28,646 nt of DNA from Bordetella parapertussis. Its GTDB lineage: Bacteria > Pseudomonadota > Gammaproteobacteria > Burkholderiales > Burkholderiaceae_B. Under the pieces are notes generated by a model. It did no database searches, had not been told where the DNA came from, and saw nothing but the letters and a program-made list of their open reading frames with translations. The DNA lies in assembly GCA_945872285.1 (NCBI GenBank), contig CAMBZR010000039.1:1-28646 (forward strand). The letters are read 5' to 3'. Of the stretch, positions 1,735 to 23,153 are shown one piece after another (the stretch's first letter is position 1; each line of letters opens with the position of its first letter). Both the position numbers and the translations under genes were made by a program.

Positions 1735-3201
1735 GTGACGACTCCAACTCTCGACTTTGACCTCACCATTCGCAATGGCCGCATCTCAACCGACAGCACA
1801 ACGTTTTTTGCTGATATCGGCGTGCGAGATGGTGTGGTTGTGGCGATTGCAAAAAACTTGCCTAAGGGCAAGCGTGACATTGATGCGACGGACCGCTGGG
1901 TATTGCCCGGCGGCATCGACAGCCATTGCCATGTCGAGCAACTATCGGGCATGGGCATGATGTGTGCCGATGATTTTTATAGCGCAACGGTGTCTGCCGC
2001 ATTTGGCGGCACCACCACGATCATCCCGTTTGCCGCGCAGCATCGCGGCAATCAGATCCCCGAGGTGGTTGCAAGTTACGCAAAGCTTGCCGCCGAAAAA
2101 GCCGTGATCGATTACGGGATTCATTTGATCTTGGCCGACCCCACGGAAGAGGCGCTGACCACGCACTTGCCTGCAGTCATTCGCGAGGGCATTACGTCGT
2201 TCAAGATCTATATGACCTACGACCGGATGAAGCTTGACGATTATCAAATCTTAGATGTGCTTGAGGTGGCCGGTCGCGAAGGCGCGTTAGTGATGGTACA
2301 CGCCGAAAACAATGACATGATCCGCTGGATTGCCAAGCGCCTGGTCGAGCGCGGTTTGACAGCCCCCAAGTACCACGCGGTGGCTCACACTCCGCTGGCT
2401 GAGACCGAAGCCACCAATCGCGCCGTTGCGTTGGCCACGCTCATGGATGTGCCCTTGTTGATCGTGCATGTCTCGGGCCTTGAAGCCGTGCGCGTGATTC
2501 ATTCGGCGCAAGCGCTTGGCTTGCCGATTCATGCCGAAACTTGTCCGCAGTATTTGTTTTTAACGGCTGAGGATATTGATTTGCCCGGCACCGAAGGCGC
2601 CAAGTTTTGCTGCAGCCCACCGCCGCGTGATCCTGAATCGCAAGAGGCCGTCTGGCAAGGTTTGATCAACGGCACCTTGCAAATGTTTTCATCAGATCAC
2701 GCGCCTTATCGTTACGACACCAGCGGCAAGCTGCCCAAGGGTGAGGCCACGACGTTCAAGGATATGGCCAACGGCGTGCCCGGAATTGAAGTACGCCTAC
2801 CTTTGTTGTTTTCTGAGGGCGTATTGAAAGAGCGCATGAGTATCGAACGTTTTGTGGCAGTGACGGCCACCAACCACGCGATGACCTACGGGTTATATCC
2901 CCGCAAGGGTACGATCGCCGTGGGAAGTGATGCAGATCTTGCCATCTGGAATCCAGAAAAAAAGGTCACGATCTCAACCAGCATGTTGCACGACAACGTG
3001 GGCTACACGCCCTATGAGGGTAAACAAATTATCGGTTGGCCCGAAGTGGTGGTCAGTGCGGGGCGAGTGGTTGTTGAAAACGGTGTTTTACACGCCGAGC
3101 GCGGCAGTGGTCGCTTTATCAAGCGCGGCACCCCCGAACCGGTTTTGCGTCAGCGCTTAAGTGGCAATCCCAATTCGATTATGCGTAAGTACTTTAGTTA
3201 A
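1735..3201 (+). CDS. D-hydantoinase / dihydropyrimidinase
   Basis: A 488-residue cyclic-amidohydrolase TIM-barrel enzyme of normal length for dihydropyrimidinases and D-hydantoinases, which open dihydropyrimidine or hydantoin rings to N-carbamoyl amino acids. All binuclear-metal ligands can be placed: H64 and H66 (DSHCH), the carboxylated lysine K157 (SFKIYMTYD), H189 (MVHAEN), H245 (IVHVSG) and D321 (FSSDHAP). Tyr162, five residues after the lysine, corresponds to the substrate-binding tyrosine of the family. The start is GTG, directly after the SDR stop codon. Its stop overlaps the convergent ATPase stop inside TTAA. Natural substrate (dihydrouracil, 5-substituted hydantoin or another cyclic imide) is unresolved; the divergent racemase favours a chiral hydantoin-like compound. 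No N-carbamoylase is seen nearby. Confidence 0.92.
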   Translation: MTTPTLDFDLTIRNGRISTDSTTFFADIGVRDGVVVAIAKNLPKGKRDIDATDRWVLPGGIDSHCHVEQLSGMGMMCADDFYSATVSAAFGGTTTIIPFAAQHRGNQIPEVVASYAKLAAEKAVIDYGIHLILADPTEEALTTHLPAVIREGITSFKIYMTYDRMKLDDYQILDVLEVAGREGALVMVHAENNDMIRWIAKRLVERGLTAPKYHAVAHTPLAETEATNRAVALATLMDVPLLIVHVSGLEAVRVIHSAQALGLPIHAETCPQYLFLTAEDIDLPGTEGAKFCCSPPPRDPESQEAVWQGLINGTLQMFSSDHAPYRYDTSGKLPKGEATTFKDMANGVPGIEVRLPLLFSEGVLKERMSIERFVAVTATNHAMTYGLYPRKGTIAVGSDADLAIWNPEKKVTISTSMLHDNVGYTPYEGKQIIGWPEVVVSAGRVVVENGVLHAERGSGRFIKRGTPEPVLRQRLSGNPNSIMRKYFS

Positions 3202-9691: not shown

Positions 9692-9829
9692 AGCCTGCCA
9701 CACGCGTTTCATGCCAAGTATCGTCCAAGCTATTGTGCCGCTGAAGCGAAAAAAGGTTGGGAGCGAGCGCAGGCTTGGTTTAAGAAATATTTGTCATCAA
9801 ATCGGCGGGCTGCTCGCTTGCTCTTTTAA
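9692..9829 (+). pseudogene. C-terminal remnant of dienelactone hydrolase family gene
   Basis: On the plus strand this open stretch translates to SLPHAFHAKYRPSY, a short linker, then GWERAQAWFKKYL, the hallmark C-terminus of dienelactone hydrolase proteins (GHAF-H-A-x-Y-R-P-S-Y, and W-x-R-x-x-x-W-F at the end). It includes the position of the catalytic histidine (codon 9701-9703). An in-frame stop at 9671 blocks it upstream, and there is no start codon or N-terminal part. The homologous portion ends at about 9793, just before the antisense 3' end of the LysR gene, and the frame runs on to a TAA at 9827. This is a dead fragment of a gene of about 230-290 codons. Confidence 0.7.
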
Positions 9830-10708
9830 GAGCGCGGCAAAGATTTCTGCCAAAGGCGAGCGACTGGCGGTTTGTGGGTAAATCAAGGCGTAGCGGGTGA
9901 TCACCTCAGTCTTGAGTGGGCGGATGACCACCTCGCTTTGTGCGAAGTAGGCGGCCGTCAAGCGGCCCACCATGGTGATGCCCGCACCCGCAGCAACCAG
10001 CGCGCAGGCGATGGATGAGCTTGGCGTTTCCATCAACACATTCGCAGTCGCTCCTTCAGATTGAAAGGCATCATCAATTTGATACCGAAGATAACTGTGT
10101 TGCGAGAGCAAGATCATCCGCTCGTCATTCAGGTCTTTGCAGGAAATCACTTTTTTTCTTGCCAGAGGATGCTTCGGCGGCAAGACAACGACGACTTGTG
10201 CAGCGGGTAAGGGTTCGAAATCAATCGCCTGACGTGCTAGCGGTAGCTCGACCACACCAATATCAAATTGGTGTGTCGCGACCAAATCTGCGATTTGACG
10301 TGAAGGTAGGCTCTGTAAAAAAACCGTGACATTCGGGCGGGTGTCTAATAACTGCGCGATGGCGTGGGGCACCATGCCTTGCGCAAGGGCGGGTAAACAG
10401 GCTACGCGCAAGGCGCCGGTGCGCCTTAACCGAATATCTTGTGCCACCTGAGCGATGCGCTCAACGCCGCTGTAAAGCGGTTCAACCTCTCTGAAAAGGG
10501 CTTCGGCCTCGGGGGTTGGGATCAGTTTGCGCCCATGCCTGACAAACAGCGCGAACCCTAGTCGTAGTTCTAGCAGCCCGATGGTGCGACTCACACCGGG
10601 CTGGGTCACGTTCAGCAGCTTGGCGGCCCCCACCACACTACCCGCGAGCATGACCGAGCGAAACGCCTCAATATGCTTAAGATTTATTTCAGCTTTCATG
10701 TATAACAT
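9797..10708 (-). CDS. LysR family transcriptional regulator
   Basis: A 303-residue LysR-type regulator. Residues 1-65 form the winged helix-turn-helix (LKHIEAFRSVMLAGSVVGAA, then VTQPGVSRTIGLLE), and about 95-295 the periplasmic-binding-protein-like effector domain. The pattern around the helix resembles the NocR/OccR/GcvA-like branch that controls opine and amino-acid genes; this is from memory, not a search. It is transcribed away from the ABC-transporter/oxidase operon, the classic LysR arrangement, so it most likely activates that operon in response to the imported compound. ATGs at 10708 and 10699 are both possible; neither has a good ribosome site. The tail overlaps a plus-strand gene remnant. 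Confidence 0.87.
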   Translation of the reverse strand: MLYMKAEINLKHIEAFRSVMLAGSVVGAAKLLNVTQPGVSRTIGLLELRLGFALFVRHGRKLIPTPEAEALFREVEPLYSGVERIAQVAQDIRLRRTGALRVACLPALAQGMVPHAIAQLLDTRPNVTVFLQSLPSRQIADLVATHQFDIGVVELPLARQAIDFEPLPAAQVVVVLPPKHPLARKKVISCKDLNDERMILLSQHSYLRYQIDDAFQSEGATANVLMETPSSSIACALVAAGAGITMVGRLTAAYFAQSEVVIRPLKTEVITRYALIYPQTASRSPLAEIFAALLKEQASSPPI

Positions 10709-10831: not shown

Positions 10832-11863
10832 ATGAGTAAGCTTTTCGTATTTTTAACAACGCTGGTGTTGGCCTTGTCGCTAGGCAATCAGGCCACTGCA
10901 CAGCAAAAGTTAGTGGTCGCGGGGTATGGTGGTTCGTTCGAAGACATTATGCGCAAAGATATTTTTCCGGCCTTTGAAAAAAAGCATAACGTCAAGATTG
11001 ATTTTGTTGCTGGCAACTCAACCAATACGGTTGCACGCTTGCAGGCACAAAAAGGCAATCAAGAGATTGATGTGGCAATTGTGGATGACGGCCCAATGTA
11101 TCAGGCCATTGCCTTAGGTTTTTGTGCGCCTATCGAAGGCATGCCGGTTGATGATATTTATAAAACGGCACGCTACAAAGACGATAAAGCGGTGGGGTTA
11201 GGTATCGTGGCTACGGGCATCATGTACAACAAAAAGATTTTTGCCGAAAAGGGTTGGGCAGTACCGACCTCTTGGAACGACCTGGCCGATCCAAAATTTA
11301 AGAAACTTGTTGTGATTCCGCCCCTCAATAACACCTATGGCTTACACGCAGTTATTGAGTTTGCCCGGCAAGGCGGAGGCGGTGAAAAGAATATCGACCC
11401 AGGTTTTAAAGCGTTTAAGGATAAAGTTGGGCCAAACGTGTTGGTGTACGAGCCCTCGCCTGGCAAAATGACTGAGCTCTTTCAAAGCGGCCAAGCGGTA
11501 ATTGGCGTCTGGGGCACTGGCCGCGTGAAGTCTTTCGCGGATACGGGTTTCCCAGTCGGGTTTGTATACCCTAAAGAAGGCGCATATGTCTTACTCGCTT
11601 CGGCGTGTCCGGTTGCCAAAGCGAAGGCTAACCCTTTAGCGCAAGAATTTGTTCGCTATCTGTTAACCCCTGAAATTCAAAGCGTCATGGGTAGCTCGTA
11701 CGGCTATGGTCCGGTTAACAAAAAAGCGACTATTAAAGACGATGCCAATGTCCCCCTGCCAATCGGAAAGCGTGCGGCGGACTTGATCGTTGCCGATTGG
11801 GACGTCATTAACAACAATCGTGAGGCTTGGAATAAACGTTGGACACGTGAAATTGAGCGCTAA
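10832..11863 (+). CDS. ABC transporter periplasmic substrate-binding protein (PotD-like)
   Basis: A 343-residue extracellular solute-binding protein of the polyamine/iron type. A Sec signal peptide is clear: MSKLF, a hydrophobic core, and a likely cut after Ala in NQATAQQ (about residue 23). The mature protein starts KLVVAGYGGSFEDIMRKD, typical of this group. The start at 10832 follows an AGGAG site; an upstream in-frame ATG at 10796 would put a charged stretch before the signal peptide and is unlikely. It is the first gene of the operon, followed 34 bases later by its ATPase. Members bind polyamines, opines, amino acids or related cations; the ligand here is unknown, but the downstream amine-oxidising enzymes suggest a nitrogen-containing one. 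Confidence 0.92.
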   Translation: MSKLFVFLTTLVLALSLGNQATAQQKLVVAGYGGSFEDIMRKDIFPAFEKKHNVKIDFVAGNSTNTVARLQAQKGNQEIDVAIVDDGPMYQAIALGFCAPIEGMPVDDIYKTARYKDDKAVGLGIVATGIMYNKKIFAEKGWAVPTSWNDLADPKFKKLVVIPPLNNTYGLHAVIEFARQGGGGEKNIDPGFKAFKDKVGPNVLVYEPSPGKMTELFQSGQAVIGVWGTGRVKSFADTGFPVGFVYPKEGAYVLLASACPVAKAKANPLAQEFVRYLLTPEIQSVMGSSYGYGPVNKKATIKDDANVPLPIGKRAADLIVADWDVINNNREAWNKRWTREIER

Positions 11864-11897
11864 TGTTTGATCGTCTAAGTATCAGTGCTGCCGTGCC

Positions 11898-12953
11898 ATG
11901 AGCTATCTTGTTTTAAATAACTTGACTAAGCGCTATGGTACGGCCGCCGCAGTCGACGGGCTGAGCCTGTCGATTGCGCAAGGCGAGTTTGTCTCGCTGT
12001 TAGGCCCGTCGGGCTGCGGTAAAACAACCACCCTGCAGATGATTGCGGGGTTTGTTGAGCCGACGGCTGGCAGCATTGTGTTGAACGGAAAAGAGCTGCG
12101 CATTGTCCCCGCGAATCGGCGAGGGTTAGGGATTGTGTTTCAAAACTACGCGCTGTTTCCACACATGACCACTGCGCAGAACGTAGCCTTTGGCCTTGAG
12201 ATGCAAGGCGTGTCTACGGCAGAGTGTGCGGATCGCGTGGCCGACATTCTTAAAATGGTGGGCCTCACGCATCTGGCTGACCGTTATCCAGCGCGTATGT
12301 CGGGTGGGCAACAGCAACGCGTGGCGTTAGCACGCGCCTTGGTGATCAAGCCAAGTGTGTTGTTGCTTGACGAACCTCTGTCTAATCTTGATGCAAAGTT
12401 GCGCGAAGAGATGCAGCTTGAGTTGCGTAGTATTCAGCGCACACTCGGTACGACAACGGTGTTGGTGACACACGATCAATCCGAGGCGCTTGCCTTGTCT
12501 GATCGCATTGTTGTGATGAACCAAGGTCGGGTTGAGCAAATTGCCGAGCCTTTTGCTGCCTATGAACAACCCCAGTCTGAGTTTGTGGGGGGGTTTTTAG
12601 GCAAAGCGAATATTTTTCAAACACAGGCAGAGGTATCTGCCGCGACACCCTCTATTCGGATTGGTGAAGCGGTGCTGCCACTTGACGGCACCACGACACC
12701 TTTAGGTAGCGTCCTCGTACGGCCAGAAAAAATTCTTTTTACAGACCCGCAGCCTGCAGCGTTGCCGGGCATCATGAAGACACGCGTGTTTCAGGGTAAT
12801 CACTGGTTGTGTTTAGTCAGTACCTCAGTCGGCGATGTCTTGGTGATTCGACAAAATGATAGCGTTGCCGTGCCAGACGAAGGTACAGCTGTGCACTTGC
12901 GTTGGCGTGCGCAGGATATGCGCGCAGTCCTGTCCTCTCAGCCGAAAGTTTAG
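11898..12953 (+). CDS. ABC transporter ATP-binding protein (PotA-like)
   Basis: A 351-residue ATPase energising the importer on the cytoplasmic side of the inner membrane. It has Walker A GPSGCGKT (36-43), Q-loop glutamine at 82, signature SGGQQQ (135-140), Walker B LLLDEP (155-160), H-loop H192, and a C-terminal TOBE-type domain (about 275-345), as in PotA and other spermidine/putrescine-type importers. It sits between the binding protein and two permeases. The ATG at 11898 gives the normal N-terminus; there is no strong ribosome site in front of it. Confidence 0.93.
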   Translation: MSYLVLNNLTKRYGTAAAVDGLSLSIAQGEFVSLLGPSGCGKTTTLQMIAGFVEPTAGSIVLNGKELRIVPANRRGLGIVFQNYALFPHMTTAQNVAFGLEMQGVSTAECADRVADILKMVGLTHLADRYPARMSGGQQQRVALARALVIKPSVLLLDEPLSNLDAKLREEMQLELRSIQRTLGTTTVLVTHDQSEALALSDRIVVMNQGRVEQIAEPFAAYEQPQSEFVGGFLGKANIFQTQAEVSAATPSIRIGEAVLPLDGTTTPLGSVLVRPEKILFTDPQPAALPGIMKTRVFQGNHWLCLVSTSVGDVLVIRQNDSVAVPDEGTAVHLRWRAQDMRAVLSSQPKV

Positions 12954-12966
12954 CTGGTCAGCGCTG

Positions 12967-13827
12967 ATGGTGATCAAACCTACACAAGCGCCTTGGCTGC
13001 TGAGCACCCCAGCCTTGGTGCTGTACGCCACTTTTTTGATTGCGCCGCTTGCCAGTGTGTTTTTGATCAGCTTCTTTAATTTCGAGTTTTACGGTGGGAT
13101 ACAAGTTTCGTTCTCGCTTAAAAACTATCTAGAGATCTTGACTGACAGCTACTATTACGAAGTTTTTGCGCGAACCTTCGGTGTGGCCTTCGCCGTTACA
13201 CTCGCCTGCGTGGTGTTGGGTACCGCTGAGGCCTATGTGTTGTCGCGTATGCGCAATCCCTGGAAAGGCTTATTTTTAATGGTAGTTTTAGGGCCCCTAC
13301 TCATCTCCGTGGTGGTTCGTACCTTAGGCTGGGCACTGTTGTTTGGTTCGACCGGTTTGATTAGCAAAGCCCTGCAGGCGCTTGGCCTAGCTTCTGGGCC
13401 GGTCAGTTTGATGTATTCAAATCTTGGTGTCGGGATTGCGCTCACGCACGTGATGGTGCCCTTCATGGTAATCGCGGTGTGGGCCTCCCTGCAACGAATC
13501 AACCCCTCGACCGAAGCTGCGGCTTTATCGTTGGGGGCGAGCCAGCTCACGGTGATCAGACGTGTGATTGTGCCGCAAGTGATGCCTGGAATCTTATCGG
13601 GTTCGATTATGGTGTTTGCGATGTCAGCGAGTGCTTTCGCAACGCCTGCGATTGTAGGTGGCCGCCGTTTGAAAACGGTTGCAACTGCAGCCTATGATGA
13701 ATTTTTAAATACCTTGAATTGGCCGCTTGGCGCAGCGTTGGCCATGCTCTTGCTGGTGGCGACGATCGTTGTGCTGATCTCGACCAATCGTTTAATCGAA
13801 AAGCGCTACGGCGCGGTTTTTAACTAA
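12967..13827 (+). CDS. ABC transporter permease (PotB-like)
   Basis: A 286-residue inner-membrane permease with about six hydrophobic helices and the EAA loop that docks the ATPase (AALSLGASQLTVIRRVIVPQ, about residues 182-201). It is the PotB-type partner of the next gene. An ATG at 12967, 13 bases after the ATPase stop, gives the N-terminus MVIKPTQAPWLLSTPAL; the open frame extends upstream to 12856 inside the ATPase gene, but that extension has no membrane-protein character. Part of the operon. Confidence 0.9.
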   Translation: MVIKPTQAPWLLSTPALVLYATFLIAPLASVFLISFFNFEFYGGIQVSFSLKNYLEILTDSYYYEVFARTFGVAFAVTLACVVLGTAEAYVLSRMRNPWKGLFLMVVLGPLLISVVVRTLGWALLFGSTGLISKALQALGLASGPVSLMYSNLGVGIALTHVMVPFMVIAVWASLQRINPSTEAAALSLGASQLTVIRRVIVPQVMPGILSGSIMVFAMSASAFATPAIVGGRRLKTVATAAYDEFLNTLNWPLGAALAMLLLVATIVVLISTNRLIEKRYGAVFN

Positions 13828-13836
13828 GGGGCGAAT

Positions 13837-14640
13837 ATGTTTTTACGCAACGGCCCCATCGGTTTGATTTTTCATACGTTATTCATTTTGTTTATCCTTG
13901 CGCCAATCATCATGGTCTGCGCCGTGGCGTTCACGGGTGATGGCTTTATTTCGTTGCCAGTGAATGGCCTGTCGCTGCGCTGGTTCAAGGCGATCTTGAA
14001 CAATCCGCGGTTCATGGATGCGTTTGTGTTTAGCCTGGGGCTTGGCTTGATCTCGGCCTCGATCGCGATTGTGATCGCAATCCCGTCTGCGTTGGCCACC
14101 GCGCGCTATCAGTTTCGTGGGCGCGAAGCGCTGATGGCGTTTTTCCTGTCGCCCTTGATGATCCCGCATATTGTTTTAGGGCTAGCGTTTTTAAAATTCT
14201 TTACCAGCATCGGTGTATCGGGCACTTATTTTGGTTTGGTGGTCGCACACACCATTGTGGTGATGCCTTACGCACTTAGGCTTGTGCTCGCGTCAGCGAC
14301 TGGTCTTGATCCGTCTCTTGAGCGTGCGGCGTTGTCGCTGGGGGCGTCTACCTGGACGACTTTTCGTCGCATCGTTTTGCCACTGATCATGCCCGGCGTA
14401 GTGAGTGGTTGGGTGATCGCCTTTATCACCAGTTTTGACGAACTCACGATGTCGATTTTTATCGCCTCGCCATCGACCACAACTTTACCTGTGCGGATTT
14501 TCTTGCATATTGAAGATACGATTGATCCGCTGGTCACAGCGGTTTCAGCCGCACTGATTTACATCACCATGATTGCGATTTTTATTCTTGATCGCGCCAT
14601 CGGACTTGAAAAACTTTTTGTTGGAAAGGGACGTGCTTAA
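13837..14640 (+). CDS. ABC transporter permease (PotC-like)
   Basis: A 267-residue second permease with about six membrane segments and an EAA loop, AALSLGASTWTTFRRIVLPL (about residues 167-186). It pairs with the preceding gene to form the heterodimeric channel. AGGGGCG lies just before the ATG as ribosome site. Its TAA stop overlaps the next ATG by one base (TAATG), so the first flavoprotein is translationally coupled to the transporter. That coupling is good evidence that uptake and oxidation serve the same substrate. Confidence 0.92.
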   Translation: MFLRNGPIGLIFHTLFILFILAPIIMVCAVAFTGDGFISLPVNGLSLRWFKAILNNPRFMDAFVFSLGLGLISASIAIVIAIPSALATARYQFRGREALMAFFLSPLMIPHIVLGLAFLKFFTSIGVSGTYFGLVVAHTIVVMPYALRLVLASATGLDPSLERAALSLGASTWTTFRRIVLPLIMPGVVSGWVIAFITSFDELTMSIFIASPSTTTLPVRIFLHIEDTIDPLVTAVSAALIYITMIAIFILDRAIGLEKLFVGKGRA

Positions 14641-15812
14641 TGAGCAACACAATAGAACACGAGGCGCTTGCCCCACCGCGACCGCGGCACCATAAAGGGG
14701 TGTACGACGCCTTAGTCATTGGGGGCGGTTTGGTCGGCTCGGCTGTGGCGTTTGGCTTGCGCCAAAAAGTTGACCATGTTGCAGTGCTTGATGAAGGCGA
14801 TATCGCTTTTCGCGCGTCGCGCGGTAATTTTGGTTTGGTGTGGGTGCAAAGTAAAGGCATGGGTATGCCGGCCTATGGGCACTGGACGATGTCGTCTCAA
14901 GCCTTGTGGCCTGAGTTGGCGCGTTTGCTGAACGAGATCACGGGTTTAGAGGTTGGGTTAGAGCAGCAAGGTGGCTTACACCCCGTGCTCAATGAAGAAG
15001 AGTACGAACAACGCATCAAGTTTATGACCACGTTGATGGGCCAACCTGGCATGGTGCAGTACGACTGGAAAATGCTCGATCACAAAGAGCTTAAAGATTT
15101 GGTGCCAGGGATTGGCCCCGAGGTTTTGGGTGCCACGCATACGTCTGTCGATGGCGTCGCGAATCCGTTGAAGATGTTACGCGCGTTGCACACGGCCTTT
15201 GATCGTCAAAAGGTCGACTATCTGCCGCTGCATCCTGTGGGCGAGATTGAGCAAAAAAATGGCGTCTTTGAAATGACCACACCACACGGTGTGATTCGCG
15301 CCCATAAGGTGGTGCTGGCCTCGGGCTTAAACAACCAAACGCTGGGTAACAAAGTGGGCTTATCAATCCCCGTGCGACCTCAGCGCGGCCAGATTGTGGT
15401 GCTTGAGCGCACCCGCCGTATGTTGCACACGCCTTTCAGCACGCTGCGGCAGATGGATGAAGGCACTTGGCTGATTGGGGATTCGCAAGAGGAAGCAGGT
15501 TATGTCGATGGCATCGTTGGTTTGCCCGTGCTGGCGACCTTGGCGGATCGCGCCGTACGCACGATGCCAGCGCTCAAGCACGTGCGCGTGGTGCGGTCTT
15601 GGTCAGCACTGCGCGTCATGTCTAAAGATGGCTTTCCAATTTACGAACAATCTGCGACGCATCCTGGTGCGTTTGTGGCTACCTGTCATAGCGGCGTGAC
15701 GTTAGCGGCTGCGCACGCCTTGCGGATTGCCCCCATGGTGATTGAGGGCGCATTGCCCGACACGATGGCTCCTTTTTCAACTCGGAGGTTTCATGTACAA
15801 CAGGCTGCCTGA
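14640..15812 (+). CDS. DAO-type FAD-dependent oxidoreductase (HcnC/OoxB-like), copy 1
   Basis: A 390-residue flavoprotein of the D-amino-acid oxidase/glycine oxidase fold. The FAD-binding motif is VIGGGLVGS (26-34), preceded by a roughly 20-residue N-terminal extension. The mid-part has SIPVRPQRGQIVVLE and the C-terminal flavin loop VATCHSGVTLAAAHA (about residues 349-363). In HcnABC, opine oxidases (OoxAB, NoxAB) and bacterial L-proline/D-amino-acid dehydrogenases, this subunit oxidises a C-N bond, passing electrons to the membrane quinone pool through the partner subunits. Here the Fer2-type and HcnB-like genes follow immediately; the Fer2 gene starts 20 bases before this stop. Substrate specificity cannot be read. 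Sarcosine oxidase beta subunit is the main alternative family name. Confidence 0.88.
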   Translation: MSNTIEHEALAPPRPRHHKGVYDALVIGGGLVGSAVAFGLRQKVDHVAVLDEGDIAFRASRGNFGLVWVQSKGMGMPAYGHWTMSSQALWPELARLLNEITGLEVGLEQQGGLHPVLNEEEYEQRIKFMTTLMGQPGMVQYDWKMLDHKELKDLVPGIGPEVLGATHTSVDGVANPLKMLRALHTAFDRQKVDYLPLHPVGEIEQKNGVFEMTTPHGVIRAHKVVLASGLNNQTLGNKVGLSIPVRPQRGQIVVLERTRRMLHTPFSTLRQMDEGTWLIGDSQEEAGYVDGIVGLPVLATLADRAVRTMPALKHVRVVRSWSALRVMSKDGFPIYEQSATHPGAFVATCHSGVTLAAAHALRIAPMVIEGALPDTMAPFSTRRFHVQQAA

Positions 15813-16101
15813 AGCACAGCAAGCCTTAGCGCTTGCGCCAGTAGTTGTCACCATCAACGGTCAAACCGTGCAATGTCGCGCGGGCGATAGCGTCGCAGCG
15901 GCCTTATTAGCGGCAGGGGTCAACGAGTGTCGCGATACTGCAGTCAAAGACGTGCCACGTGGTCCGTTCTGTTTAATGGGCATTTGTTATGACTGCCTGG
16001 TGATGATCGATGGTCAACCCAACCAGCAAGGCTGCATGATCCCCGTGCGTAGTGGCATGAAAATCGAACGCCAACTAGGCGCACGTGAGGTACAAGAATG
16101 A
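15793..16101 (+). CDS. (2Fe-2S)-binding protein (HcnA-like / sarcosine oxidase alpha N-terminal type)
   Basis: A 102-residue ferredoxin-like protein of the Fer2_4 type. The cluster cysteines are C60, C65 and C68 (PFCLMGICYDCLV) and C81 (QQGCMIPVR), in the order typical of HcnA and of the N-terminal domain of some opine oxidase and sarcosine oxidase alpha subunits. It carries electrons within the flavoprotein complex. A GGAGG ribosome site lies 5-9 bases before the ATG at 15793. It overlaps the upstream flavoprotein by 20 bases and the downstream one by 4 (ATGA), strong signs of translational coupling and a stoichiometric complex. Confidence 0.93.
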   Translation: MYNRLPEAQQALALAPVVVTINGQTVQCRAGDSVAAALLAAGVNECRDTAVKDVPRGPFCLMGICYDCLVMIDGQPNQQGCMIPVRSGMKIERQLGAREVQE

Positions 16102-17606
16102 TTACTACAACGCATTGCGATTTATTAGTCGTGGGTGCAGGGCCTGCGGGCTTGGCGGCTGCCACGACGGCCGCGCAACAAGGTGTTGCCACAATCTTGT
16201 TAGATGAGCAGGCCGCGCCCGGTGGGCAGATTTATCGTGCGATGACAAGCACGCCGATCCTCGACCGAAAAATCTTGGGCGAAGATTATTGGCATGGTGA
16301 ATCGCTGCTCGAGCCTTTCAATCAATCGGGGGCACAGTACCTGCCCGGCGCAACGGTCTGGGCGGTGGCGCAAATGACGGTTGCCGATGCCACGCAGGGT
16401 TTTGAAGTTGGCTATTCGGTTGCGGGCGAGGCCCGCATGTTGCACGCCAAACAGATCGTGTTGGCCACAGGCGCACAAGAACGGCCGTTTCCGATCCCGG
16501 GTTGGACTTTGCCTGGCGTGATGACAGCAGGGGCTGCCCAAGTGTTGTTGAAGTCTTCGGGGATTGTGCCGGGTAAGGGGACGATACTGGCCGGCTGTGG
16601 CCCGTTGTTGTATCTCATCGCGTGGCAATATTTAAATGCAGGCATCAAGGTCGACGCCTTGCTCGACACGACACCGCCTGGGCGTTTAGGACAAGCCTTG
16701 CGCCACGCGTGGGGGTTTTTGACCTCACCGTATCTTGTCAAAGGCTTGAAACTTTTGCGTGAAGTGAAGGCCCAAGTTCGTATTGTGAAAGGTGTGACGG
16801 CGCTTGAAGCGTTGCCTGGTGATGCCCCAAAAGGTGATGCCCAAAAAGGACATGCCCAAGAAGGAAACGCCCAAAATAATCAAGCTTTGCAAAGTGTGCG
16901 TTTTACTGCGGGTGGTCGTACCGAGACGCTAGCTGCCACGCAACTACTCTTGCATCAAGGTGTGATCCCCAACATCAATCTCGCGCAAGCAGTCGGTGTT
17001 GAACAACAATGGAATGAACTGCTCTTGTGCTGGGAGCCCAAGGTTGATTCGTGGGGTGGCACTAATGTGCCGGCGGTCAGCATTGCGGGTGATGGTGGCG
17101 GTATTGCGGGCGCCTGGGCGGCCGAGCATCGCGGCCGCCTGTCTGCGTTGCAGGTCGCGCATCAGCTTGGCAAAATGACAGCGGCGCAACGGGATGCCGC
17201 GAGCGTTGCGCCACGCGCCGCGTTTATGCGTGCGATACAAGGGCGCGAGTTTTTCGATACGCTGTACCAGGCGCCCGAGCAGTTTCGTTTGCCCACGGGC
17301 GACACGATCGTGTGTCGTTGCGAAGAAATTACCGCCGCTCAGGTGCGCGAAACGGTCAGCCTAGGATGCCCTGGGCCTAATCAGATGAAATCCTTTTTGC
17401 GTTGTGGCATGGGTCCCTGTCAGGGGCGTTTTTGCAGCGTCACGGTCACTGAACTGATCGCCCAAGAGCGCAAGGTCACACCACAAGAGGTGGGTCACTA
17501 TCGTTTGCGCTTTCCAACCAAGCCGCTCACGCTCGGCGAGTTGGCAGCGCTGCCGCAAACAGACGACTCTAAAAAAGCCGTGATCCGTTTAAAGAAACCG
17601 GTGTAA
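16098..17606 (+). CDS. FAD/NAD(P)-binding oxidoreductase (HcnB/OoxA-like) with C-terminal BFD-type [2Fe-2S] domain
   Basis: A 502-residue pyridine-nucleotide-disulfide-oxidoreductase-fold protein. The first FAD motif is VVGAGPAGLAA (11-21), a second dinucleotide motif lies near residues 155-165 (GKGTILAGCGPLL), and the C-terminal BFD-type cluster cysteines are C406, C408, C436 and C441 (CRC, then RCGMGPCQGRFC). Family members act as the alpha subunit of HcnABC and opine/octopine oxidases. Residues 241-260 are a four-copy pentapeptide repeat of the form G-x-A-Q-x, encoded by a 15-bp tandem repeat and not part of the family core. The ATG overlaps the preceding gene by 4 bases. A second DAO gene follows after 19 bases. 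Confidence 0.9.
   Translation: MITTTHCDLLVVGAGPAGLAAATTAAQQGVATILLDEQAAPGGQIYRAMTSTPILDRKILGEDYWHGESLLEPFNQSGAQYLPGATVWAVAQMTVADATQGFEVGYSVAGEARMLHAKQIVLATGAQERPFPIPGWTLPGVMTAGAAQVLLKSSGIVPGKGTILAGCGPLLYLIAWQYLNAGIKVDALLDTTPPGRLGQALRHAWGFLTSPYLVKGLKLLREVKAQVRIVKGVTALEALPGDAPKGDAQKGHAQEGNAQNNQALQSVRFTAGGRTETLAATQLLLHQGVIPNINLAQAVGVEQQWNELLLCWEPKVDSWGGTNVPAVSIAGDGGGIAGAWAAEHRGRLSALQVAHQLGKMTAAQRDAASVAPRAAFMRAIQGREFFDTLYQAPEQFRLPTGDTIVCRCEEITAAQVRETVSLGCPGPNQMKSFLRCGMGPCQGRFCSVTVTELIAQERKVTPQEVGHYRLRFPTKPLTLGELAALPQTDDSKKAVIRLKKPV
16818..16877 (+). repeat. In-frame 15-bp tandem repeat, four copies
   Basis: Four consecutive 15-base units start at 16818, 16833, 16848 and 16863, each beginning GG and carrying GCCC at the centre, for example GGTGATGCCCAAAAA. 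They keep the reading frame and encode G-D-A-P-K, G-D-A-Q-K, G-H-A-Q-E and G-N-A-Q-N. The first two copies are nearly identical and the later ones diverge, as expected for a minisatellite that expanded recently from one unit. It lies in a loop region between the FAD-binding and central domains of the HcnB-like protein. Confidence 0.85.
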
Positions 17607-17625
17607 TTCTCGGGCAACGATTGCA

Positions 17626-18783
17626 ATGACAGAACACGCGCACGCCGCAGCCGTCATCATTATTGGTGGCGGGTTGCATGGCAGTTCAACGGCGCTGCAT
17701 TTAGCGCGCGCGGGTGTTCACGCGTTGGTACTTGAAAAAAACTATATTGCCCGCCATGCATCCGGAGTCAATGCCGGCGGCGTGCGAACGCTGAGTCGGC
17801 ATCTGGCAGAGGTGCCCTTGTCGCTGGCCTCGCGTGAAATCTGGTTAAAGCTACACGACTGGGTCGATGATGATTGTGGCTTTGATCAAAACGGTCAAAT
17901 GCGCATCGCCGAAGACGAGGCAGATGTTGCAACATTGCGTGCGCGCTTAAAAACGATGCACGAGCATGGCTACACCCACGAAGAGTGGCTTGACGCTGAC
18001 GAGGTGCGTGCGATCGTGCCGGCGATTACGCCCAGCATTCAGGGTGGTTTGATTGTGCGTGCCGATGGTTCGGCTGATCCCTATCGCACGACCCGTGCGT
18101 TTAGATTCAAAGCGCAAAGCTTGGGTGCACGCGTGATCGAAGGGATACAGGTACAACAGCTGCGGCGCAGTGCCGGTCAGTGGCAGGTGCAAACCGATCA
18201 AGGTCTGTTTACTACCCCTATTTTGGTGAACTGTGCAGGCGCTTGGGCTGATAAAATCGCGGCCCAAATGGGTGAGCCTGTGCCGCTTGACCCGGTGGGG
18301 CCCATGATGTTGGTCACAACCGCAATGCCGCATTTTTTAAATCCAGTCGTGTTGGGTACGGGGCGACCTTTGTCATTTAAGCAACGGGCCAACGGCACGG
18401 TCTTGATTGGCGGGGGTCGTTTAGCCTATGTCGATCGTGAGCGTGACTGGAGCGAACTTGATTTCAGACAACTTGCCCAAGGTGCGCGTACGGTATGTGA
18501 TTTATTTCCGCATATGAAGCAAGCCATCATTAGCCGAGGCTGGGCCGGTATTGAAGCCCAGATGCCAGACGGGATTCCGGTGATTGGCCCGAGCAGTACT
18601 GAACAAGACCTGTATCATGCCTTTGGGTTCTCGGCACATGGGTTTCAGATGGGGCCCATCGTTGGCAAGATTACCGCTGACTTAATTACGACGGGTCAAA
18701 CGGATTTACCGATTACCCCTTTTTCAATCGCGCGCTTTCAAACAGGTGCGCCTTCTCTTACTCAGGAGCATTTTCATGGCTAA
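17626..18783 (+). CDS. DAO-type FAD-dependent oxidoreductase, copy 2
   Basis: A 385-residue DAO-fold flavoprotein with the FAD motif IIIGGGLHGSSTALHLARAG (11-30) and the C-terminal loop AFGFSAHGFQMGPIVGK (about 329-345). It resembles sarcosine-oxidase-beta/OoxB-like proteins. It is a distinct relative of the first DAO subunit in the operon rather than a recent duplicate: the flavin motifs differ (LVGSAVAF versus LHGSSTAL). It may be an alternative beta subunit using the same alpha/gamma partners, or may act on a later intermediate. No clear ribosome site precedes the ATG. The RidA-like start lies 8 bases inside its end. Confidence 0.86.
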   Translation: MTEHAHAAAVIIIGGGLHGSSTALHLARAGVHALVLEKNYIARHASGVNAGGVRTLSRHLAEVPLSLASREIWLKLHDWVDDDCGFDQNGQMRIAEDEADVATLRARLKTMHEHGYTHEEWLDADEVRAIVPAITPSIQGGLIVRADGSADPYRTTRAFRFKAQSLGARVIEGIQVQQLRRSAGQWQVQTDQGLFTTPILVNCAGAWADKIAAQMGEPVPLDPVGPMMLVTTAMPHFLNPVVLGTGRPLSFKQRANGTVLIGGGRLAYVDRERDWSELDFRQLAQGARTVCDLFPHMKQAIISRGWAGIEAQMPDGIPVIGPSSTEQDLYHAFGFSAHGFQMGPIVGKITADLITTGQTDLPITPFSIARFQTGAPSLTQEHFHG

Positions 18784-19129
18784 CATTACTCGCTTAGACT
18801 CAAACGCACGGCTCAGCCGCGTGGTCATTCATGGTGACACGGTGTATGTTGCAGGCATCACTTCAAGCGTCAAGGGTGATATCGTGGCGCAAACGCGCGA
18901 TGTGTTTCGCCAAATCGATGGCTATTTAGCCGCTGCGGGTTCAGACAAGCATCACCTGTTAACTGCACAAATCTGGCTCAAAGACATCACTGCAGATTTT
19001 GCGGGTATGAATAGTGTGTGGGCTGAATGGGCGCCTAAAGATGCGTTGCCCACACGCGCAACAGGCGAGGTCAAACTGGCTGCGTCTGACTTGTTGGTTG
19101 AAGTCATCGTTTCTGCCGCAAAAAAGTAA
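18776..19129 (+). CDS. RidA-like (YjgF/YER057c/UK114) protein
   Basis: A 117-residue RidA-superfamily protein. It shows R94 (PTRATGEV) and E109 (LLVEVIV), whose spacing of 15 residues equals that of the catalytic Arg105/Glu120 pair in Salmonella-type RidA. RidA proteins hydrolyse reactive imines and enamines, such as 2-aminoacrylate, to keto acids and ammonia. Following an amine-oxidising flavoprotein, it very likely clears the imino product. An AGGAG site ends 8 bases before the ATG. It overlaps the upstream gene by 8 bases and is separated from the next by only 2 bases. Some RidA-like subgroups have lost activity, but here the key arginine is present. Confidence 0.92.
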   Translation: MANITRLDSNARLSRVVIHGDTVYVAGITSSVKGDIVAQTRDVFRQIDGYLAAAGSDKHHLLTAQIWLKDITADFAGMNSVWAEWAPKDALPTRATGEVKLAASDLLVEVIVSAAKK

Positions 19130-19131
19130 GC

Positions 19132-20427
19132 ATGTCTAACGTTGCTGTCATCGGGGCCGGCCCTGCTGGCCTGATGGCGGCTGAAACACTTGCGCTGGCC
19201 GGTCACTCGGTCCAAGTGTTTGAAGCCAAGCCCTCGGCGGGCCGTAAGTTTCTGATGGCGGGTCGCGGTGGTTTAAATATCACGCACTCTGAGCCTGCCG
19301 AGCGTTTCAATGCGCGGTATGGGGCGCGTGCGCCTGAATTTGCGACGATGTTGGCTGCGCTTGATGCCAATGCCCTGCGTGAATGGGTACAGGGCTTAGG
19401 AATTGACACCTTTGTCGGTTCGTCAGGGCGTGTGTTTCCGGCTGAAATGAAAGCGGCTCCGTTGCTGCGGGCCTGGATCAATCGCCTACGTAAACAAAAC
19501 GTGCAGTTTTTAATGCGTCATCGCTGGTTGGGGTTTGTGCTAGAGCAGGGTTCCCAAAAACAATCCTTGCGTTTTGAGTCGCCGAAAGGCGAAGTGACTG
19601 TCACACCTGATGCCACCATTCTTACCTTGGGCGGCGGCAGTTGGGCGCGCCTTGGGTCAGACGGCGCCTGGTGGCCGTTGTTACAACAACAGGGCGTCGA
19701 GCTTGCGCCGCTGCTGCCGAGCAACGGAGGCTTCGAAACAAAATGGTCGCAATACTTTATTGATCAGTGCGCAGGTCAGCCGCTTAAGACAGCCGAGTTT
19801 TGGCTGACGATCGCGCCTGTCAAGGCAACCAAAGGGCGTCCTAAAAGCGCTAAAGCCACACGCACACTCGCGGCAGGGAAGCAGACCGCACATCTGCGGG
19901 GCGAATGTTTGATGACCGAACAGGGGCTTGAGGGCGGTGCCATCTATACGCTGTCAGCAGCCTTGCGCGATGAAATTCTGCGTCACGGTTCGGCTACGTT
20001 GTACCTTGATTTATTACCCGATCACACCGCGGATAAAGTATTGACCGAAGTCTCGCACCCTCGAGGTACGCGCTCACTCTCCTCGCACCTTCGCTCACGC
20101 TTAGGTGTACATGGCGTCAAAGCTGCACTGTTACGCGAATGCTTGTCCGCTGAAACATTTAAAGACCCGGTGCAGTTAGCCGAGGGTCTGAAATCCCTAC
20201 CAATTGTCTTAACCGCATGCCGCCCAATCGATGAGGCGATCAGTACGGCAGGTGGTGTGCAGTTTGAAGGCCTGACCAAGCAGCTGATGATCAAAACCTT
20301 GCCCGGCGTGTTTTGCGCCGGCGAAATGCTCGATTGGGAAGCCCCCACAGGCGGATATTTAATCAACGGCGCAATGGCCTCGGGTAAAGCGGCTGCGGTT
20401 GGGGTGAGTGAGTGGTTGAGTGGCTAG
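19132..20427 (+). CDS. HI0933/BaiN-like NAD(P)/FAD-dependent flavoprotein (PP_4765 type)
   Basis: A 431-residue flavoprotein of the HI0933/YhiN/BaiN superfamily. The FAD motif is VIGAGPAGLMAAETLALAG (6-24) and a characteristic GRKFLMAGRGGLNITHSEP follows (37-55). The C-terminus has ISTAGGVQFEGL, then GEMLDWEAPTGGYLING, the family tail. The best fit I can recall is the PP_4765-type flavoprotein subgroup, function unknown; BaiN reduces bile acids but that assignment should not be transferred. It starts 2 bases after RidA and is the last gene of the operon. Its stop overlaps the opposing small gene by 4 bases. Its link to the oxidase pathway is only positional: this gene is often found alone elsewhere. 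Confidence 0.88.
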   Translation: MSNVAVIGAGPAGLMAAETLALAGHSVQVFEAKPSAGRKFLMAGRGGLNITHSEPAERFNARYGARAPEFATMLAALDANALREWVQGLGIDTFVGSSGRVFPAEMKAAPLLRAWINRLRKQNVQFLMRHRWLGFVLEQGSQKQSLRFESPKGEVTVTPDATILTLGGGSWARLGSDGAWWPLLQQQGVELAPLLPSNGGFETKWSQYFIDQCAGQPLKTAEFWLTIAPVKATKGRPKSAKATRTLAAGKQTAHLRGECLMTEQGLEGGAIYTLSAALRDEILRHGSATLYLDLLPDHTADKVLTEVSHPRGTRSLSSHLRSRLGVHGVKAALLRECLSAETFKDPVQLAEGLKSLPIVLTACRPIDEAISTAGGVQFEGLTKQLMIKTLPGVFCAGEMLDWEAPTGGYLINGAMASGKAAAVGVSEWLSG

Positions 20428-20726
20428 GCGCTACTTTTTGTTTTGCGCTTTGAGGCTGTAGCTAGATTCTGATTTGCCCACGCCAAGGCGCTGTCTAGTT
20501 TTTTTGCAGTTGAAGGCTGGTGCAGCCATCGTTCGTTGTCTGGGATGATTGTTACCGTTCGAATGACCCAGACGCCGGGTTCGGGGTTTTCGACTAATAC
20601 CTTTCGCCCAGCGAACTCTTTACCGAGTGAGATCTGTCCACTTGTCCCAATTGACTTAACGATCTGTTGTTCTGCTGGAAGTGCATCCATGTCGCGCCTC
20701 TCTATTTTCATGCTGCATGATTGCAT
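20424..20726 (-). CDS. Small AbrB-like / antitoxin-like hypothetical protein
   Basis: A 100-residue basic-tailed protein that I recognise only in outline. The segment QIVKSIGTSGQISLGKEFAG then KVLVENPEPGVWVIRTVTI looks like the swapped-hairpin beta region of AbrB/MazE-type DNA-binding proteins, and the C-terminal helix KLDSALAWANQNL could bind a partner. No toxin gene accompanies it: the opposing operon starts right at its stop codon. It may be an orphan antitoxin or stand-alone regulator. An internal start at 20711 (MKIERRD) is equally likely, as neither has a ribosome site. It is convergent with the flavoprotein gene. Confidence 0.55.
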   Translation of the reverse strand: MQSCSMKIERRDMDALPAEQQIVKSIGTSGQISLGKEFAGRKVLVENPEPGVWVIRTVTIIPDNERWLHQPSTAKKLDSALAWANQNLATASKRKTKSSA

Positions 20727-20848
20727 TATCGCATGAAATTAAATAGAAACCCAATGAAATGGGATGCTAGCCCTATATTTTTTGCTCAATTTGTGCAAAA
20801 GTTAGGGCTTACGCTTACGTTACACCCCACCTTTGAGCCGACCTCACC
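20727..20848. promoter_or_regulatory. Intergenic region with long nested dyad upstream of amidohydrolase
   Basis: This region lies between a minus-strand small gene and the plus-strand amidohydrolase. It contains a two-tier inverted repeat: outer arms AGCCCTA (20769-20775) and TAGGGCT (20803-20809), and inner arms TTTTGC (20780-20785) and GCAAAA (20795-20800), with nine bases in between. There is no following T tract, so a terminator is unlikely. It could be an operator, perhaps for the convergent IclR regulator, or a leader hairpin. No clear sigma-70 promoter was found. Confidence 0.5.
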
Positions 20849-22354
20849 ATGAGCCTTCTTAGTCCTGACGAACTTGCCGCCTTAATCCCTGCTGAATCAT
20901 CGATTTTTCCGGCGCCGATCCCGGTTCAGTGTGTTTCAAGTGATGAGTTTTTGCCCGGGGCTCAAACGCCTAAGCAAAAAGAATATGAAGCACGTGTGAA
21001 GTCGCTTGGTGCAGAGCTTGCAAAAAAACAGGGCCTCACGCGTCGCAAGTTTTTTAAATCAGCCTCTGGGATGGCCGCCGCGTTTTTGGCAATGAATGAT
21101 ACCTATGGGCCGATGTTTGGTGTATCGCGCGCCGAGGCCGCGACGCCCGAAATGGCTAATGAGCGCGCCAAGGCGTTGTCTGGCCAGTTCATCATGGATA
21201 TGCACACGCACTTTTTGCGGGATGACACCAGCCTTGAAGGCTTCGTGCGCAGTCGCGAGGCGGTTGGCAAAGCGGGTTGGAATCCAGCCTTGGTGGGTAA
21301 GCCGCAGAAGCTCGAAGACCTTAAGTTTGCCAATTACTTAAAAGAAATATTTTTGGATAGCGATACCAAGGTGGCGTGTATCAGTGGTGCGCCCTCAGAG
21401 AAGGTGAGCGATTGGTTTTTAACCAACGATATGAAAAACCAAGCACGTGCCACGATCAACTCAATCGCTGGTTCAAAGCGCGCCTTTGCCCACGCCATCT
21501 TTACCCCGGGCTATGCAGGTTGGCTAGACGAAATCGATCGTGCGATTGAAGTGCTTAAGCCCGACTCATTTAAGGGCTATACGATTGGTGACAACACAAA
21601 TAAACAGTTGTCTGTGCACCCCTGGCGTTTAGATAACGAAAAACTTGTGTATCCCGCGTACGAAAAGTTTGTGAAAGCCGGGCTTAAAAATGTATGTATT
21701 CATAAAGGGTTGTTTCCGCCCTCTGTTGAAAAGAATTTTCCAAACCTCTTGCAATATGCCAAGGTCGATGATGTGGCGAAGGCCGCCAAAGATTGGCCAC
21801 AACTGAACTTCATCATTTATCACGGTGGCTATCGTTATAGCGGTGGTGGCGGCGCCCAAGGTGCCTGGGGACAATTTGAAAAAACAGGTCGCATCGACTG
21901 GGTCAGTGATTTGGCGGATATCCCCGGTAAGTATGGCGTCAACAATGTGTACGCCGATGTCGGGCAGCTTTTTGCACAGTCTACGATTGCTGATCCGCGC
22001 GTTTCGGCGGTGATGATGGGCCAGTTGATCGCTGGCTTGGGGGCAGACCATGTCTGTTGGGGCACAGATGCCATCTGGACCGGTGCACCACAATGGCAAA
22101 TCGAAGCGCTGCGTCGTCTTGAAATCCCAGAAGACTTACAAAAGCGTTATGGGTTGAAGCCGCTAGGCCCTGCTGATGGCCCGGTTAAGCGTGCCATTTT
22201 TGGTGAGAACAATGCGCGGCTGTACAACTTTACGGCGGCTCAGCGGGCTGCCGTTAGCGGCGATAAGATTGCCAGCGGTAAAGCGATTTATGACCGGCAC
22301 GGTGACGGGCGCACCAACATGGCTTATGGCTATGTGAATCGCGGAGTCGCTTGA
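20849..22354 (+). CDS. Tat-exported amidohydrolase-family (ACMSD-like) metal-dependent hydrolase
   Basis: A 501-residue protein with a long N-terminal region before a twin-arginine signal: TRRKFFKSAS (R65, R66), hydrophobic GMAAAFLAM, and a likely cut after SRAEA (about residue 97). The mature enzyme is an amidohydrolase-2 TIM barrel with metal residues H119/H121 (DMHTHF), a mid histidine in FIIYHGG and the catalytic-Asp site GTDAIWTG near the end. Export folded through Tat suggests a metal-containing periplasmic hydrolase or decarboxylase. The 63-residue stretch before the arginines is longer than a normal n-region and could be cleaved or form a small domain. Gene is convergent with the IclR regulator 4 bases away. 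Substrate unknown. Confidence 0.85.
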   Translation: MSLLSPDELAALIPAESSIFPAPIPVQCVSSDEFLPGAQTPKQKEYEARVKSLGAELAKKQGLTRRKFFKSASGMAAAFLAMNDTYGPMFGVSRAEAATPEMANERAKALSGQFIMDMHTHFLRDDTSLEGFVRSREAVGKAGWNPALVGKPQKLEDLKFANYLKEIFLDSDTKVACISGAPSEKVSDWFLTNDMKNQARATINSIAGSKRAFAHAIFTPGYAGWLDEIDRAIEVLKPDSFKGYTIGDNTNKQLSVHPWRLDNEKLVYPAYEKFVKAGLKNVCIHKGLFPPSVEKNFPNLLQYAKVDDVAKAAKDWPQLNFIIYHGGYRYSGGGGAQGAWGQFEKTGRIDWVSDLADIPGKYGVNNVYADVGQLFAQSTIADPRVSAVMMGQLIAGLGADHVCWGTDAIWTGAPQWQIEALRRLEIPEDLQKRYGLKPLGPADGPVKRAIFGENNARLYNFTAAQRAAVSGDKIASGKAIYDRHGDGRTNMAYGYVNRGVA

Positions 22355-22358
22355 CCGC

Positions 22359-23153
22359 TCAGTCAGGTTCAGCAGTCAGCAAGTGCTTTTGAATCTGCTC
22401 GATCGCTTTGGTGATTTCGCTCAGCGCGAGGTCTGAGCGAGCTTTATCCATGCGCGTGGTTAAGGTTGAGACGCTGATACCGGCAATCGGCACATTGTTC
22501 TTATCCCTCAAGGGCACGGCAATCGAACGCACGCCCGGCAGTTCAATCACGTCACTAATCACAAAGCCACGCGTGCGCGCACGTGCAATGGTCTTGCGCG
22601 CGTTGGCTTCAGAATAATTTGGATATTTTTCGCGACAGCGCTCGGCATTGACTTTAAAGATACGCTCGATCTCGTTGTCATCCAAAAAACTCATGATGGC
22701 TAACGCACCACCGCCCACATTCAAGGGGCGTCGTTTGCCGACCTCAAGCACAAACACCTTGATCGGAAACGCCCCCTCAGCGCGATCGATACAGACTCCA
22801 TCAAACCCTGCGCGAGCGGTCAGCGACACGGTATCGCCCGTGGCCTGCGCGATTTGTTGCAGGTGGGGGTGACACAGGTCGCGAATATTGGTGCGCGGGC
22901 TGGCGGCCAGGCCCATTTCGTAAATGGCGCTGCCTAAAAAATACCGTTTGGTGCTTTCGTCTTGCCGGATCAGGCCTTCAGAGACCAAGCCTTGCAGGAT
23001 CCGGTGCGCGGTGGGGCGCTCGATGGCGACCTCGGTGCACAGATCGATGAGGCGGGCGCCAATGCGGTTACGCGCTGACACCCCGCGCAGCAGAGCTGCA
23101 ACGCGTTGCACAACTTGCGTACCTGATTTAGTGGCGGCGCTTGGAATCGTCAT
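22359..23153 (-). CDS. IclR family transcriptional regulator
   Basis: A 264-residue IclR-type regulator. Residues about 12-75 form the winged helix-turn-helix (VVQRVAALLRGVSARNRIG, then ERPTAHRILQGLVSEGLI), and about 85-255 the GAF-like effector domain (GDTVSLTARAGFDGVCIDR, then GVRSIAVPLRDKNNVPIAG). It lies convergent with, and 4 bases from, the amidohydrolase; IclR proteins commonly control catabolic genes next to them. Candidate targets are the amidohydrolase and the msrC-GMC genes that run divergently from it. Two GTCGTAC direct repeats (23175, 23192) lie 22-45 bases upstream of its start, a possible autoregulatory site. Confidence 0.92.
   Translation of the reverse strand: MTIPSAATKSGTQVVQRVAALLRGVSARNRIGARLIDLCTEVAIERPTAHRILQGLVSEGLIRQDESTKRYFLGSAIYEMGLAASPRTNIRDLCHPHLQQIAQATGDTVSLTARAGFDGVCIDRAEGAFPIKVFVLEVGKRRPLNVGGGALAIMSFLDDNEIERIFKVNAERCREKYPNYSEANARKTIARARTRGFVISDVIELPGVRSIAVPLRDKNNVPIAGISVSTLTTRMDKARSDLALSEITKAIEQIQKHLLTAEPD

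Follow-up and report, generated by a model that had tools for sequence, protein, structure and literature searches.

A probable operon for the uptake and oxidation of an opine-like secondary amine, with two alternative β subunits, in Bordetella parapertussis

The flavin-containing opine dehydrogenase encoded by OdhB-C-A of Pseudomonas putida has been purified, and Bradyrhizobium japonicum carries a longer set, OdhB1-C-A-B2, whose genes in strain USDA110 are bll7193-bll7190 (PMC4575208). For both organisms the same paper describes an α4β4γ4 assembly, its cofactors and a dye-linked opine dehydrogenase activity. Each B. japonicum β subunit assembles and co-purifies with the common α and γ subunits, and according to the text of that paper a mixed complex was not seen. 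The β2 complexes oxidise octopine but not nopaline and the β1 complexes oxidise octopine weakly; type-1 β subunits group with Oox and Nox, and type-2 β subunits lie nearer to archaeal L-proline dehydrogenase (PMC4575208). On plasmid pTiEU6, sacEFGH is described as a four-gene set, two of whose components resemble noxB, accompanied by genes of an ABC importer, of a binding protein and of a LysR regulator; its authors liken it to the B. japonicum set and suggest two complexes for different opines (PMC6733357). Here we analysed a 28,646-nucleotide stretch of B. parapertussis DNA (contig CAMBZR010000039.1; the whole stretch is called the window), in which a dehydrogenase gene set of this type follows the genes of an importer. 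The operon is quite probably catabolic, and its sequence points to PotABCD-type uptake of an opine-like secondary amine and to its oxidation by an OdhABC-family dehydrogenase with alternative β1 and β2 subunits.

The operon is real and consists of a divergent LysR gene followed by genes for a substrate-binding protein (SBP), an ATPase, two permeases, β1, γ, α, β2 and RidA. Genes were called from the open reading frame (ORF) listing, Pfam matches and direct inspection of the sequence; the last one below is not counted as part of the operon.

9797..10708, minus strand: LysR-type regulator (Pfam HTH_1 and LysR_substrate), divergent from the operon
10832..11863, plus strand: periplasmic SBP (Pfam SBP_bac_8 and related domains; PotD/FbpA/AttC fold class)
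11898..12953, plus strand: importer ATPase (Pfam ABC_tran and TOBE_2)
12967..13827, plus strand: permease A, PotB-like (Pfam BPD_transp_1)
13837..14640, plus strand: permease B, PotC-like (Pfam BPD_transp_1)
14640..15812, plus strand: DAO1, the predicted β1, an OdhB1/OoxB-like type-1 catalytic subunit (DAO Pfam)
15793..16101, plus strand: [2Fe-2S] γ subunit, OdhC-like (Fer2_4)
16098..17606, plus strand: α subunit, OdhA/OoxA-like, with flavin adenine dinucleotide (FAD) site and BFD-like [2Fe-2S] domain (Pyr_redox_2, Fer2_BFD, SO_alpha_A3)
17626..18783, plus strand: DAO2, the predicted β2, an OdhB2/LecH/SacH-like type-2 catalytic subunit (DAO Pfam)
18776..19129, plus strand: RidA-family protein (Ribonuc_L-PSP)
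19132..20427, plus strand: HI0933/BaiN-like flavoprotein (TIGR03862 match)

Of the nine plus-strand junctions, five are gaps (34, 13, 9, 19 and 2 bases) and four are overlaps (1, 20, 4 and 8 bases). Permease B and DAO1 are joined by TAATG, as had been pointed out in an earlier reading of the letters alone (the original prediction), and AGGAGA precedes the SBP start (ATG 10832). The likely start of permease A is ATG 12967, since a longer ORF starting at 12856 would overlap the ATPase gene. Promoter-like sites numbered 2 against 7.2 expected and terminator-like sites 21 against 16.3 expected; one of the latter (20418) falls where the BaiN-like gene ends.

Both DAO proteins carry the two motifs looked for, GGGLVG at residue 28 and RSW at 319 in DAO1, GGGLHG and RGW in DAO2. 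Among subunits extracted from 74 chosen loci, an extraction that missed some (e.g. the DAO2 of L175 and the DAO1 of L200), GxGxxG was present in 60/63 β1 and 52/52 β2 proteins and R-x-W in 62/63 and 50/52, respectively. The γ cysteines C60, C65, C68 and C81 are spaced C-x4-C-x2-C-x12-C, in agreement with the family pattern C-x4-C-x2-C-x11~12-C, and the motif was found in all 73 extracted γ proteins. The window α subunit (502 amino acids) combines a GAGPAG FAD motif with C406-x-C408-x32-C441-x4-C446; C-x-C-x30-34-C-x4-C occurs in 73 of the 74 extracted α proteins, and the annotated OoxA of A. vitis F2/5 (L024) has the same cysteine spacing as the window protein. Heterotetrameric sarcosine oxidase was rejected as a candidate, as TIGR01372 (soxA) gave 132.3 bits for α and 22.9 for γ against a cut-off of 1164, and solved α subunits of that enzyme have 964-965 residues. 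As a separate observation, residues 241-259 of the window α (16818-16874) form a repetitive 19-residue stretch where nine aligned relatives are gapped, and α length ranges from 482 to 502 amino acids in same-genus kin, as if the repeat number changes.

DAO1 is 44% identical to OoxB, 40% to the SacE-position protein of pTi1D1108 and 34% to the NoxB-position protein; DAO2 is 46% identical to the LecH-position protein of pTiBo542 and 41% to the SacH-position protein of pTi1D1108. For α, the identities are 46% with OoxA, 41% with the LecG-position protein and 37% with the sac-like α of pTi1D1108. The best PDB matches of DAO1 were glycine oxidases and that of DAO2 was 1y56_B, which we take to be the β subunit of archaeal L-proline dehydrogenase. 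A quick tree of β subunits (117 rows, SH-aLRT support only, BjOdhB1/B2, PpOdhB, D-HypDH and HcnC not included) gathered 63 DAO1 rows in one clade (SH-aLRT 100) including OoxB (L024, L134) and the NoxB-position (L133) and SacE-position (L132) proteins, with the window DAO1 inside a 40-row subclade (SH-aLRT 96) also holding OoxB. DAO2 rows grouped with LecH- and SacH-position proteins (48 rows, SH-aLRT 97), 1y56_B being a long branch on the DAO2 side. DAO1 and DAO2 are only distantly related in this tree, and the upstream DAO proteins of L183 and L199, both weak matches, fell at the base of or outside the DAO1 clade. Taken together, the motifs, the gene order B-C-A(-B2) and the β grouping are those of the flavin-containing heteromeric opine dehydrogenases (Odh/Oox/Nox/Lec/Sac), to which the predicted complex can be assigned at the sequence level.

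The importer proteins scored below the NCBIfam cut-offs of potA (343.8 vs 355.6), PotB (143 vs 348), PotC (165.3 vs 326) and PotD (34.8 vs 582). The predicted SBP model (mean pLDDT 92.1) matched PDB entries 4edp and 3pu5 together with AfuA, AttC, AgtB and PotD, a broad fold class including binders of agropine, γ-aminobutyrate, iron and sugar-phosphate, so the ligand cannot be told from the type of importer. The best NCBIfam model of the LysR protein was PRK11013, with a score under the cut-off; it is 42% identical over 194 amino acids to OccR of pTiA8196 and 29% to the SacR-position protein of pTi1D1108, and by position and homology it is likely a substrate-responsive switch. All 41 RidA proteins extracted from the chosen loci have P[ATVSPR]R near the C-terminus, presumably the Rid arginine. 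We propose by analogy that RidA acts as imine hydrolase for the dehydrogenase product. A tested precedent is the Rid protein DadY of P. aeruginosa, which clears the imine released by the flavin amine dehydrogenase DadA (PMC9714295).

Named genomes were scanned using ten aligned DAO2 proteins as query, which gave at least 598 pattern matches and at least 515 confirmed relatives. Neighbourhoods were counted in the best 80 of these relatives, at loci with enough flank, a choice of top scorers that overstates conservation. DAO2 was accompanied by α in 72/73 loci, Fer2 in 72/73, DAO1 in 69/70 and all four importer genes in 59/61; L122 had none of the partner genes. With α adjoining DAO2 in 72 of 73, the set is neither confined to one genome nor randomly ordered. 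Among the 54 loci with all flanks, 53 carried DAO1, Fer2, α and DAO2; 52 of these had at least three importer genes, 35 of the 52 had RidA, and 19 also had LysR. The neighbourhood that the original prediction had suggested searching for, DAO-Fer2-HcnB-DAO-RidA with a PotABCD-type importer, was thus recovered in 35 of 54. By title, Bradyrhizobium was absent among the best 80 of the at least 515 relatives.

An even sample of 397 genomes drawn evenly from the phylum was searched with α at 1e-60. Matches were obtained in 37/397 genomes at 39 places, and the 38 outside the nearest genome were scored: 17 had β1 and β2, 13 β1 only, 7 β2 only and 1 neither, with unsafe labels at L183 (dual through a 29% upstream match, and ending soon after α), L202 (ending at α) and L207 (ending just before α). 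RidA was nearby in 24 of the 38. A PotABCD-type importer, scored present at three or more of the four genes, accompanied 15/17 dual-β, 3/13 β1-only and 1/7 β2-only loci. The 15 dual-β loci with importer came from seven genera, nine of them from one genus, and RidA was near 13; in genus g146 (9 even-sample loci) the window layout of importer plus β1-γ-α-β2 was found, with RidA in 8 of 9. The dual-β genes are conserved together with a PotABCD-type importer in both alpha- and betaproteobacteria, and this recurrence across classes agrees with the original prediction that an opine-like secondary amine is imported and oxidised by one operon under a dedicated LysR. Loci of the Azospirillum lipoferum type have importer and dehydrogenase genes on opposite strands, so co-transcription of the two groups is not a requirement of the system. 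β1-only versions (L041-L043), made up of LysR, PotABCD-type importer, DAO1, Fer2 and α and 40-62% identical to the window's genes, also occur in the window's genus, so β2 can be missing within one genus. Other arrangements were seen as well. Four genomes of one genus (L191, L192, L196, L204) have an ornithine-cyclodeaminase-like gene followed by Fer2, α, DAO2 and RidA; neither DAO1 nor a recognised importer lies within the stretch. A TRAP transporter replaces the ABC importer beside β1-γ-α-RidA in Oceanisphaera (L023), L190, L194 and L197.

In the mechanism that we propose, an N-carboxyalkyl amino acid or close analogue would be imported by the SBP and the PotABCD-type importer and oxidised by a flavin/iron-sulfur dehydrogenase, in which one common α-γ electron-transfer pair would work with either DAO1 or DAO2, both β subunits probably being in use. 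The β FAD would remove a hydride from the C-N bond, and a respiratory acceptor might receive the electrons by way of flavin mononucleotide (FMN), the two [2Fe-2S] clusters and the FAD of α. Hydrolysis of the imine, perhaps with the help of RidA, would then give an amino acid plus a 2-oxo acid, and LysR may turn the operon on when the substrate is present.

Several points weigh against this proposal. The substrate class is our inference and is not readable from the sequence, as the original prediction had already stated, and the α/β/γ family also serves D-hydroxyproline, L-proline and hydrogen cyanide synthesis (PMC4575208). The middle cysteine spacing of α is x32, where a legend in the same paper prints x15~20. 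A recognisable LysR was found in 37/58 and RidA directly after DAO2 in 42/75 of the best-80 loci, so neither is obligatory. The importer differs in type from those of octopine and Lec/Sac loci: at E 1e-3, blastp matched the SBP to neither OccT nor SacA. Searches with NCBIfam and Pfam brought up no gene for arginase, ornithine cyclodeaminase or an opine synthase within the operon.

The alternative that survives best, although we consider it rather unlikely, keeps the same type of complex and gives it a D-amino acid, D-hydroxyproline or a cyclic imino acid instead of an opine. The complexes of D-hydroxyproline dehydrogenase (D-HypDH) and of archaeal L-proline dehydrogenase, where the 1y56 complex is placed, are relatives (PMC4575208), and 1y56_B is the best PDB match of DAO2. 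However, both DAO proteins group with proteins of opine plasmids (OoxB, NoxB and SacE; LecH and SacH) in a tree built without D-HypDH, the position of the long 1y56_B branch is unsure, and B. japonicum OdhAB2C is described as inactive on L-proline (PMC4575208). Much less probable is an operon for polyamine uptake and oxidation, since the match of the importer proteins to PotA/PotB/PotC-type models stays under every curated cut-off, that of PotD included, and the SBP fold class is broad. There is a similarly slender chance that DAO1 and DAO2 are stand-alone oxidases acting in two consecutive steps, only one of them using α and γ. The glycine oxidase matches of DAO1 and the distant relationship of the two proteins would fit this; on the other hand, DAO1 alone (13/38) or DAO2 alone (7/38, with L202 and L207 among the unsafe labels) accompanies γ and α in the even sample, so that either can be the partner. 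Moreover, both B. japonicum β subunits co-purified with α and γ, and both window DAO proteins carry the R-x-W motif tied to FMN binding (PMC4575208). A variant of the HcnABC hydrogen cyanide synthase, a related enzyme with an identical assembly (PMC4575208), has a negligible probability, as the dedicated importer, LysR and RidA suit catabolism better and β1 and β2 group with opine-plasmid proteins (tree without HcnC).

As regards the preferred reading, an opine-like substrate and a dehydrogenase with alternative β subunits, the ratio of nonsynonymous to synonymous divergence (dN/dS) bears on β1. Synonymous divergence (dS) was ~1 against L030 and mostly at saturation in the three remaining comparisons. 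Within this limit, dN/dS of β1 was 0.009 against L027, the lowest of the ten genes, and 0.014 against L030, equal to permease B; values for α were 0.046 (L027) and 0.030 (L030), and for β2 0.046 and 0.044. At larger distance (L036) the permeases were 82-83% identical versus 73% for β1. The distances of β1, β2 and α correlate over 40 dual loci (r 0.92-0.95, 0/500 permutations as high), a correlation partly due to common species history. β1 is not decaying and is among the operon's most strictly conserved proteins in close kin, which makes it unlikely to be a spare part. This bears on the role of β1, a point left open in 2015, when it was suggested that the physiological role may be restricted to the β2 complex (PMC4575208). 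More tentatively, importer, two-β dehydrogenase and often RidA may form a module of their own that is inherited widely outside Agrobacterium. The two β heads would then both be needed, for two stereoisomers or two members of a single N-carboxyalkyl amino acid family from soil or water that is not a crown-gall opine, with a single α-γ hub and transfer of the imine to RidA; we regard this extension as conceivable rather than probable. Neither the pairing of the dual-β set with a PotABCD-type importer, nor frequent RidA beside it, nor strong constraint on β1 was found in the open-licence literature searched.

The original prediction had included the BaiN-like gene (19132-20427) in a ten-gene run on one strand with overlaps or tiny gaps. 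Order, strand and spacing held, but this gene was rejected as a member, being downstream in only 9/68 best-80 loci; DAO2 in these nine is 76-97% identical to the window's. It was also found in 18/20 searched genomes of the window's genus; no α match at 1e-60 was obtained in G013, G015, G016, G023 and G031, all of which carry it, and in G006, G017 and G032 the two genes are on different contigs. Its co-transcription in the window is possible, given the 2-base gap after RidA. The amidohydrolase (20849-22354) and IclR (22359-23153) genes were likewise set aside, since, within the best 80, only near relatives have them next to it. The amidohydrolase (Amidohydro_2) has, by eye, a twin-arginine-like stretch near its start. 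At the left edge of the window (85-3201) lie a 223-residue ORF with no NCBIfam match at 1e-20, an ORF that appears SDR-like by eye and a D-hydantoinase/dihydropyrimidinase gene, perhaps another amide or hydantoin catabolic set.

Among annotated opine loci, lecFGH of pTiBo542 (L045) shares γ-α-β2 with the window; it differs in lacking β1, with an NAD-type opine dehydrogenase gene in its place, and in its importer. In the lec-like locus of pTiLBA1191 (L046), α and DAO2 are annotated in several pieces, unlike pTiBo542. The octopine operon (pTiA8196, L134; A. vitis F2/5, L024) resembles the window in its divergent LysR, importer and β1-γ-α followed by RidA (ooxB-Fer2-ooxA-RidA). Unlike the window, it is without β2, has the amino-acid-type OccQMPT importer and is followed by ornithine cyclodeaminase, plus arginase in F2/5. 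The presence of RidA after ooxA on these two octopine-type plasmids contradicts the earlier statement that known systems have no built-in RidA. On pTi1D1108 (L132) the layout is like sac, and differs from the window by a Lec/Sac-type importer, two adjoining NAD-type opine dehydrogenase genes and no annotated RidA in the stretch. Beside these genes, at 19054-22001, are a second LysR gene and the first part of a further importer. The binding protein of this importer shares 26% identity with the window SBP; the corresponding importer of pTiEU6 was called potABCD-like (PMC6733357).

Closest in gene content are the two-β sets. The succinamopine plasmid pTiEU6 (sacA-H/sacR) has β1-γ-α-β2, an ABC importer and LysR like the window, and with B. 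japonicum OdhB1-C-A-B2 the window shares the four genes, their order with the type-1 β upstream and the type-2 β downstream, and the motifs, a likeness drawn from the published gene order and motifs. A term search of the main text of the B. japonicum paper found no RidA/YjgF, and transporters are given there as putative (PMC4575208). The view that known three-component systems lack a second DAO and that the combination may be undescribed does not hold, as both these systems have two; the two-β opine dehydrogenase gene set was already described in 2015 (PMC4575208) and again with importer and LysR (PMC6733357). The operon lends further weight to the idea, put forward in 2015 from work on P. putida and Bradyrhizobium, that bacteria outside crown galls use opine-like compounds as ordinary nutrients.

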